Origin: Candidatus Neomarinimicrobiota bacterium
Lineage (GTDB): Bacteria; Fidelibacterota; Marinisomatia; SCGC-AAA003-L08; TS1B11
Direction of reading: 5' to 3'
DNA length: 58,801 nt
NCBI GenBank assembly: GCA_041862535.1
Contig: JBGVTM010000201.1
Span: 1-58,801, forward strand
Positions 21,157-22,226 of the stretch are shown here, one piece after another (within the stretch, counting starts at the first letter, position 1; every line of letters begins with the position of its first letter). The notes under the pieces were generated by a model that was not told the origin of the DNA, did not search any database, and was given only the letters and a program-made list of their open reading frames with translations. The position numbers and the translations under genes are program-made.

Positions 21157-21515
21157 TCGGTGGCGTTTCTTTGATGGCAGACATAGTGTCGCGAGTAGGT
21201 CTCCAGGTGCTCAGGCCACCATTTGTTGCCGTTTAAGAATTAGTAATTGCCTGTGTCGAACGAACTTTACAGTATACTTGACTATTATCTTAGAAATAGC
21301 TTATAATTAGTATTGAGGGCAAGTGGGTAAAAGCGCCAGTACTTACTACGCCAAACCCTCTAAACTTCTATATGGCCTCACCGGGCATTATATTAGTAGA
21401 TGGTAGCTACAGTTTTGGAAGCTCACCTTGGAAACTTGGGGCACTTACACATTATTCTACCAAGGTAAAAGGTAGAGTATAACCGACACCAACCTGCATA
21501 ATAGGAGGGTACAGC
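21157..21515. other. Leader region of the small membrane protein pair
   Basis: AT-rich, about 360 bases. It contains the promoter at 21278-21307 and then a roughly 200-base untranslated leader. GAGGG (about 21315) and CCCTC (about 21356) could pair. The leader ends in a near-perfect AGGAGG ribosome-binding site 6-7 bases before the ATG. No ORF of note is present; a leader RNA with a regulatory role is possible but unproven. Confidence 0.45.
21278..21307 (+). promoter_or_regulatory. Near-consensus sigma-70 promoter
   Basis: TTGACT (21278-21283), an 18-base spacer, then TATAAT (21302-21307). This is the best -35/-10 pair I noticed in the window. The predicted start is near 21314, about 200 bases before the first small membrane protein gene. 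Confidence 0.65.
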
Positions 21516-21740
21516 ATGGCAGCTATACAGGATTGGATTGATACCCTGGTATCATGGCTAAAGGCCTTAGTTGAGTTTGGATTGGCCTTGGCCGTGGTAT
21601 TCCTGGTTATCGATATTCTGTTCCCTGGCCAGCCAATAGGTATTGTTGACAACGTGACCGGCCTGGTAAACGTTTTTGTTGAGAATGGTGTGGTTGGCCT
21701 GATTGCCCTGTTATTTTTCCTGGCAATCTATCAGAAGTAG
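21516..21740 (+). CDS. Small two-TM membrane protein, paralogue 1
   Basis: 74 residues with AGGAGG upstream. Predicted layout: amphipathic N-terminal helix (IQDWIDTLVSWLKALV), first membrane helix (about 20-37, GLALAVVFLVIDILF), a polar loop containing VDNV, and a second membrane helix (about 57-72, NGVVGLIALLFFLAIY) ending in a Lys. It aligns with the next gene at about 42 of 72 positions, with ENGVVGLIALL identical in both. I recognise no family. The strong promoter, strong ribosome-binding site and terminator suggest high expression. The short two-helix form recalls holins, small stress proteins or membrane-complex subunits, but no motif supports any one of these. Confidence 0.75.
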   Translation: MAAIQDWIDTLVSWLKALVEFGLALAVVFLVIDILFPGQPIGIVDNVTGLVNVFVENGVVGLIALLFFLAIYQK

Positions 21741-21758
21741 CGTTTCTTAAGATACGGC

Positions 21759-21797
21759 ATTCGCCCCCTTTGCAAGGGGGCGAATCATACTTTTCTT
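21759..21797 (+). terminator. Hairpin terminator after paralogue 1
   Basis: Arms ATTCGCCCCCTT (21759-21770) and AAGGGGGCGAAT (21774-21785) form a perfect 12-bp stem with a TGC loop, followed by a T-rich stretch (ACTTTTCTT). It separates the two small genes and may make the second a readthrough product. Confidence 0.8.
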
Positions 21798-21892
21798 GAA
21801 TCGCCTTCCTCTCATCCTAAGGAGAGAGGAGCTTGTTTGCTCGGAGATTCTGAAAGCGGTGGTCTACTCTTGCCAAAAATGGAGGGATAACG

Positions 21893-22111
21893 ATGGCAAC
21901 GTTTAAAGATATAATCGACACTTTCATTAGCTGGCTCAAGGTCTTGATTGACCTGGGACTGTCACTAATTGTGGTGTTCTTACTGATCGACGTTCTGTTT
22001 AGAACAGGATTTGTGATTGATAATGTTAGCGACATTGTGGCCACCTTCGCTGAAAACGGCGTGGTCGGCCTGATTGCTTTATTGCTCTTTGTATTGATCT
22101 ATAAGAAGTAA
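21893..22111 (+). CDS. Small two-TM membrane protein, paralogue 2
   Basis: 72 residues, clearly a tandem duplicate of the preceding gene: same amphipathic N-terminus (FKDIIDTFISWLKVL), first membrane helix, IDNV loop, and ENGVVGLIALL second helix ending in KK. GGAGGG lies 7 bases before the ATG. The two loops differ by a two-residue gap and by charge (LFPGQP versus LFRTG), the most diverged part. A small hairpin (CTCTC/GAGAG) lies in the 150 bases before it. No separate promoter is evident. Confidence 0.75.
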   Translation: MATFKDIIDTFISWLKVLIDLGLSLIVVFLLIDVLFRTGFVIDNVSDIVATFAENGVVGLIALLLFVLIYKK

Positions 22112-22195
22112 GCTGCCCAGCAAATTCCGGCCCTTTCCCTGTTATCGGGGAAGGAGACCATTATTTGTGGCCGGGAGCGGGCATTGATTGTCAAT

Positions 22196-22226
22196 GACTA
22201 AAAAGGCCCCGTGTGGGGCCTTTTTT
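22196..22226 (+). terminator. Strong intrinsic terminator after paralogue 2
   Basis: AAAAGGCCCC (22201-22210), loop GTGT, GGGGCCTTTT (22215-22224) and further Ts. The A-run on the other side also makes it usable for the minus-strand peptidase gene ending at 22327. A weaker GC hairpin lies at about 22125-22150. Confidence 0.9.

Follow-up and report, generated by a model that had tools for sequence, protein, structure and literature searches.

A conserved tandem pair of undescribed small membrane proteins, kept with an intercistronic hairpin, in the phylum Fidelibacterota

What is represented by two adjacent genes that encode paralogous membrane proteins of 74 and 72 residues and carry a promoter, a leader and a terminator of their own? 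The window, meaning the whole 58,801-nucleotide stretch of DNA that was analysed, forms a single contig in a draft genome of Candidatus Neomarinimicrobiota (Fidelibacterota, SAR406) that measures 2.9 Mb and is 96% complete; SAR406 is abundant in the world ocean with almost no cultured members. Fidelibacterota is the current name of the phylum (PMC11652737). The neighbours of the pair in the window are genes for an endonuclease/phosphatase-fold protein and an M1-type peptidase. An initial annotation had named a promoter, a leader of about 200 nt, two genes, a hairpin between them and a 3' terminator, and every one of these elements was found in the sequence:

21278..21307, forward strand: sigma-70-type promoter, TTGACT-18-TATAAT, 11/12 consensus positions, with similar elements in families f1, f7, f14 and f18
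21314..21515, forward strand: 5' leader of about 200 nt, from sequence (fold of the whole leader z -0.72, not significant)
21455-21477, forward strand: leader hairpin UUCUACC..GGUAGAG, 39-61 nt 5' of the start codon (z -2.1)
21503-21508, forward strand: ribosome-binding site of gene A, AGGAGG, from sequence
21516..21740, forward strand: gene A, 74-aa membrane protein (profile E 2.2e-24; AlphaFold2; purifying selection across the family)
21759..21785, forward strand: intercistronic hairpin of 12 bp with a 3-nt loop (dG -20.6 kcal/mol, z -3.4), found in this position in most of the phylum's pairs
21881-21886, forward strand: ribosome-binding site of gene B, GGAGGG, from sequence
21893..22111, forward strand: gene B, 72-aa paralogue of A (profile E 1.9e-23), same architecture, basic C-terminus
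22200..22226, forward strand: intrinsic terminator AAAAAGGCCCCGTGTGGGGCCTTTTTT (z -4.3)

The two proteins share 42 of 74 residues (57%, E 1e-26, BLASTP), and the segment ENGVVGLIALL is identical between them. The window contained three promoters and three terminators compared with 2.1 and 2.4 expected in shuffles, counts that alone would not stand out; the promoter and terminator of the pair are credible because they are conserved: families f1, f7, f14 and f18 have TTGAC-17/18-TAnnAT elements at distances of about 155-210 nt before gene A, and 71 of 103 pairs have terminator-like structures at most 140 nt 3' of gene B. The proposed tandem paralogous pair with its own promoter and terminator was borne out and proved to be conserved in related genomes. 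High expression, which had been expected as well, found no support in codon bias, codon usage being not raised in the window's genome and mixed in TCS55-like genomes.

The initial annotation knew no family for the proteins, and none could be assigned here: no significant match was obtained in Pfam, NCBIfam or PHROGs, to holins or any other known family, or in PDB by sequence or Foldseek, and no description of the family was found in the literature. TrbL, TrbC and phenol-soluble modulins scored weakly in a few isolated cases, which look compositional. TrbL reached 15.2 and 20.9 bits relative to a cut-off of 25.9 and T4SS_pilin 8.5 relative to 26.6, while the best isolated Pfam score came from a single member matching TrbC (E 2.8e-4). 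VirB2/TrbC, the T4SS pilins and TrbL (PF04956, PF18895, PF04610) resemble A and B as hydrophobic two-helix proteins; however, A and B have no evident cleavable signal sequence and no type IV secretion genes alongside, and this assignment was rejected. In the protein of gene A, an N-terminal amphipathic helix leads into TM1, followed by an acidic loop with a second amphipathic helix and by TM2, which starts at GVVGLIAL. AlphaFold2 placed its helices at residues 2-35, 43-56 and 58-73 (pLDDT 83, pTM 0.42), and a B-type relative showed the same helix pattern (pLDDT 81, pTM 0.37); Foldseek searches with these monomers returned no PDB match, and the fold search of PDB and BFVD gave nothing significant. 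TM2 opens with GxxGLxAL, both GxxG glycines being invariant in 94 of 94 members, and median dN/dS values of 0.05 for A and 0.11 for B indicate strong purifying selection. The loop was net acidic in 96-100% of proteins and the C-terminus of B net basic in 100%, a charge distribution that fits the positive-inside rule with N- and C-termini in the cytoplasm, from which we infer that A and B are inner-membrane helical hairpins with both ends inside.

A family profile built from 22 members was searched against 245 genomes of the phylum and matched in 140 of them: exactly twice in 126 genomes, once in 2, three times in 4 and four times in 8. Streamlined genomes of 0.7-1 Mb (f6 g22) also carry the pair, and its retention there suggests that its function is probably basic to SAR406 cells. 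Four genomes of another class (f30) likewise have A followed by B, whereas families f12, f16, f5 and most of f4 are without the pair, and in the pair-less genomes G015, G016 and G081 no diverged copies were found beside the orthologue of the neighbouring gene. A scan of named genomes, which used exact peptide patterns of one subtype and cannot prove restriction to the phylum, was run with an A-type alignment and yielded 80 loci; almost all carry the title Candidatus Neomarinimicrobiota/Marinimicrobia or TCS55, and a few are titled only "bacterium", "uncultured bacterium" or "FCB group". Collectively, A and B form an undescribed family of about 70 residues, whose inheritance across the main class of Fidelibacterota is chiefly vertical and which is kept as an ordered unit of A, hairpin, B and terminator. 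The earlier description of this unit as the least explained in the window was too weak, as it is a near-core feature of the phylum's main class and has viral homologues. With a family profile, several hundred genes listed as hypothetical would gain an annotation.

The layout was read in 104 distinct pairs, and A and B shared a strand and were separated by 6 to 152 nt, with the single exception of a locus whose hits are 452 nt apart. The neighbourhood varies by lineage while the pair stays linked, the neighbours in other lineages, named from their sequences, being glycosyltransferases/amidase/MurI/FolC/Rho, enolase, or YajC/Def/Fmt. Identity between A and B falls to about 22-25% in some lineages. 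In the tree, A genes outside the window's lineage formed one clade (100/99), and A and B of the window's lineage (f1, f7, f14, f18) grouped together on the B side (97/94); a single origin of all A genes could not be rejected (AU P = 0.397). The tree may reflect an old duplication that was later homogenised in part, or the window's lineage may have undergone a duplication of its own. Two loci (L047, L048) carry a tandem A-B-A-B duplication with identical protein copies.

The perfect 12-bp hairpin reported between the genes was confirmed at 21759-21785, and its counterparts were surveyed in 100 pairs with gaps of at least 45 nt by taking the best local hairpin of each. The median dG was -20 kcal/mol and the median z -3.8 (z < -2 in 81 of 100), whereas the remaining same-strand gaps in these loci had a median dG of -9.1 (Mann-Whitney P = 6e-24). 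The hairpin recurred with compensatory changes in about 80-90% of these pairs. In the TCS55-like group, 90.9% of stem cells were paired and 9 double changes were counted relative to 3.5 in shuffles; the covariation score was reached by 0 of 500 shuffles, and a one-base slide of the partner destroyed the signal. Within the window's lineage the 5' arm is mostly UUCGYCCC-like. Three pairs with gaps of 6-33 nt, which leave no room, and one with a 59 nt gap (L053) have no strong hairpin, which indicates that it is not essential everywhere.

Dosage control by partial termination had been proposed for this hairpin, which would then act as a weak intrinsic terminator past which only part of transcription continues into gene B. 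The window itself offers some support for this reading, as its hairpin precedes CATACTTTTC, is among the few followed by some U, and is called terminator-like by a consensus scan. Across the phylum, however, the stem is the conserved part, and only 2 of the 100 homologous hairpins are followed by a U-rich tail (5 or more T among the 8 nt after the hairpin), which makes partial termination highly improbable; an element of mRNA stability or processing fits better, and the hairpin probably serves as one. A stable hairpin without a U-tract between genes is described as protecting an upstream operon segment (Dar and Sorek, PMC5927463), and hairpins that set operon stoichiometry through decay have precedents (PMC5927463, PMC6238624). 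The classic case is the puf operon (PMC6238624), whose hairpins determine how stable each segment is and in what stoichiometry the products are made (PMC6238624; Klug 1987 and Chen 1988, via PMC6238624 and PMC5927463). The Rhodobacter puf operon (pufBA) likewise joins tandem small membrane proteins with a strong intercistronic hairpin devoid of a U-tract, an mRNA architecture recognised here from sequence alone; it differs in that A and B share no sequence similarity with its products, have two TM helices rather than one, and are not followed by reaction-centre genes. Light-harvesting alpha/beta proteins of the puf type were rejected as an identity, given two hydrophobic helices and no conserved bacteriochlorophyll-binding His in the family columns. 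Operons that combine small membrane proteins with decay hairpins are known, and what is undescribed here is the protein family.

Further structure was present in the leaders. The whole 202-nt leader of the window folded no better than shuffles (z -0.72), and the window's lineage has the hairpin without a U-tract (21455-21477) instead of a terminator-like one, the relative L020 carrying UUCUGCC..GGCAGAA where the window carries UUCUACC..GGUAGAG. In f7 and f14 leaders, a TTGAC-17/18-TAnnAT promoter and a TGATCTCGGAGC motif recur; TGATCTCGGAGC was seen soon after the promoter in six loci (L040, L011, L041, L039, L042, L043), where a short hairpin may form and would carry GGA in its loop. TCS55-like leaders combine a hairpin GUGG..CCAC with a long stem AAUUGAAC..GUUCAAUU, which encloses GGGGGCAGGGAUACCUGCCCCC and a U-tract and ends about 25-40 nt 5' of the start codon, and five pairs of the whole leader structure were changed on both sides (0 of 500 shuffles). 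Terminator-like hairpins occurred in 34 of 101 leaders, compared with 2.3% in shuffles; 15 of the 26 leaders with a divergent upstream gene have one, so these hairpins are not merely the terminator of the previous gene. The leader structures thereby point to regulated expression. No Rfam family scored above threshold in the leader, and caiA RNA (RF02934) was rejected, its best score being 31.7 bits relative to a gathering cut-off of 55.5, with similar scores at unrelated sites elsewhere. About 145 nt upstream of gene A in L106-L124, covarying stems surround a terminator-like hairpin with a U-tract before the ribosome-binding site, a candidate attenuator or riboswitch.

A third member type, 77 residues long and exemplified by G138:C57:11183-11413 (36% identical to A of the window, E 2.4e-7), has 160 relatives in IMG/VR contigs and offers a second angle on the function of the pair. 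The marker genes of these marine contigs are T4-like (Gp23, gp32, gp25 and a T4-type terminase), and the gene was present once per locus in 81 of 81 loci read; it occurs in many different contexts, thus behaving as single-gene cargo. It was absent from 50,697 catalogued phage records, and only the 77-aa type was found in viruses, with no A- or B-type copies. The viral proteins form one clade (98/100), which has a long branch and is nested with the window's lineage (100/100). An own terminator followed the gene in 21 of 50 loci (vs 1.6%), and an HTAAATA box, which resembles T4-type late promoters, lay 39-88 nt (mostly 50-62) 5' of the start in 36 of 50, a 72% share; shuffles gave 12%, and other viral genes carried such a box in 33% of cases. 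Binning and homology suggest that the host of these contigs may be SAR406, but some of them carry 5-aminolevulinate synthase and other heme genes, which are more typical of Alphaproteobacteria hosts. The contig G138:C57 itself is a jumbo T4-like viral contig of 335,231 bases inside a SAR406 genome bin (L260-L266) and carries a gp15 tail sheath stabiliser, a baseplate hub, a primase and DnaB; its presence in the bin reflects either a host link or a binning error.

Taken as a whole, the best explanation, which we put forward tentatively, is that a single inner-membrane assembly contains both A and B as diverged subunits, with their dosage set by RNA. The two proteins would co-assemble through the small-residue face of TM2 (GxxGLxAL), and the transcript would be processed or degraded around the intercistronic hairpin to give a fixed, probably unequal A:B ratio; a U-tract-bearing leader hairpin may further attenuate expression in several lineages. 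Hetero-oligomers of A and B are plausible, and the leading guess for their role is a membrane-structuring or pore-like assembly. Marine T4-like viruses may have acquired a single copy, the donor probably being a lineage close to the window's, and appear to express it late. Against this explanation weigh the low pTM of the AlphaFold2 monomers (0.42, 0.37) and their lack of a Foldseek match in the PDB, the pairs without a strong hairpin, the U that follows the window's own hairpin, the unraised codon adaptation, the families that lack the pair, and the single viral copy, which indicates that the pair is not always needed. It is unlikely, though conceivable, that the full scenario holds, in which an undescribed near-core hetero-oligomeric SAR406 assembly, controlled by a leader attenuator and a decay hairpin, was captured by marine T4-like/jumbo viruses that use one late subunit to take control of it, substitute for it or permeabilise it. 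With covariation in both, the leader and intercistronic hairpins make the locus a compact two-gene test of how operons set subunit ratios.

The single copy in viruses, together with the low A/B identity reached in some lineages, would also suit independent, subfunctionalised homo-oligomers that merely share a transcript, but order and tandem linkage survive changes of neighbourhood and the unit duplicates as A-B, so that we regard separate homo-oligomers as unlikely. A place as accessory subunits of a known inner-membrane complex, such as the Sec translocon, ATP synthase, a terminal oxidase or another respiratory complex, is distinctly unlikely, even though two-TM small subunits are common in such complexes and the pair is nearly ubiquitous in the class, streamlined genomes included. 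The comparison covered SecG, ATP-synthase c and COX1 out of a wider set of complexes that also includes a non-canonical NDH (PMC6143742). A separate SecG was found in 41 of 42 genomes and a separate ATP-synthase c in 42 of 42, whether the pair was present or not, and in the loci read the pair never adjoins operons of this kind. SecG was rejected as an identity, as A and B have no Pfam match to it, and so was ATP synthase subunit c, for want of a PF00137 match and of a conserved acidic residue in TM2. A subunit of an aerobic-respiration oxidase was likewise rejected, COX1 being found neither in the window's genome nor in the 95%-complete G003, both of which have the pair. Most relatives of the window's genome (G000) and its congener G003 have a COX1 match, and these two are possibly anaerobic or equipped with another oxidase.

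The element order of MscL (PF01741), with an amphipathic N-helix, TM1, a periplasmic loop, TM2 and both ends inside, recalls that inferred for A and B and raises a membrane channel or tension valve of this type. MscL was found in 0 of 27 pair-bearing genomes versus 2 of 15 pair-less ones, a weak pattern given that it is missing from 13 of the 15 pair-less genomes too, and A and B, a paralogous pair of 70-75 residues, are about half the length of MscL (about 130 residues) and show no sequence or fold similarity to it, including no PF01741 profile match; such a valve appears very doubtful. MscL is apparently absent from 40 of the 42 Fidelibacterota genomes tested. Class II phage holins have about 70-80 residues, two TM segments and a basic C-terminus, and the viral homologues, at 77 residues with two TM segments, a basic C-terminus and one copy per locus, look late-expressed, with their T4-late-promoter-like boxes and own terminators. 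The viral copies could accordingly be holins of this type and the cellular pair a domesticated holin/antiholin-like system, and a weak, non-significant fold match to a holin (E 7.3) was also recorded. Yet no holin family matched significantly (best PHROG E 0.018, from one member of 60, and none for viral forms), the viral contexts are not lysis cassettes and the catalogued phage records lack the gene, while the cellular pair is near-core, under strong purifying selection with a housekeeping distribution, and without an endolysin neighbour in the loci read. A lysis role is therefore very unlikely, and the tentative reading of A and B as subunits of one assembly remains the one we prefer.

In some viral loci (L182-L187, L194-L196, L178), heme biosynthesis genes adjoin the small membrane gene, namely a row of ALA dehydratase, porphobilinogen deaminase, uroporphyrinogen decarboxylase and coproporphyrinogen oxidase, and a viral 5-aminolevulinate synthase lies beside DUF454.
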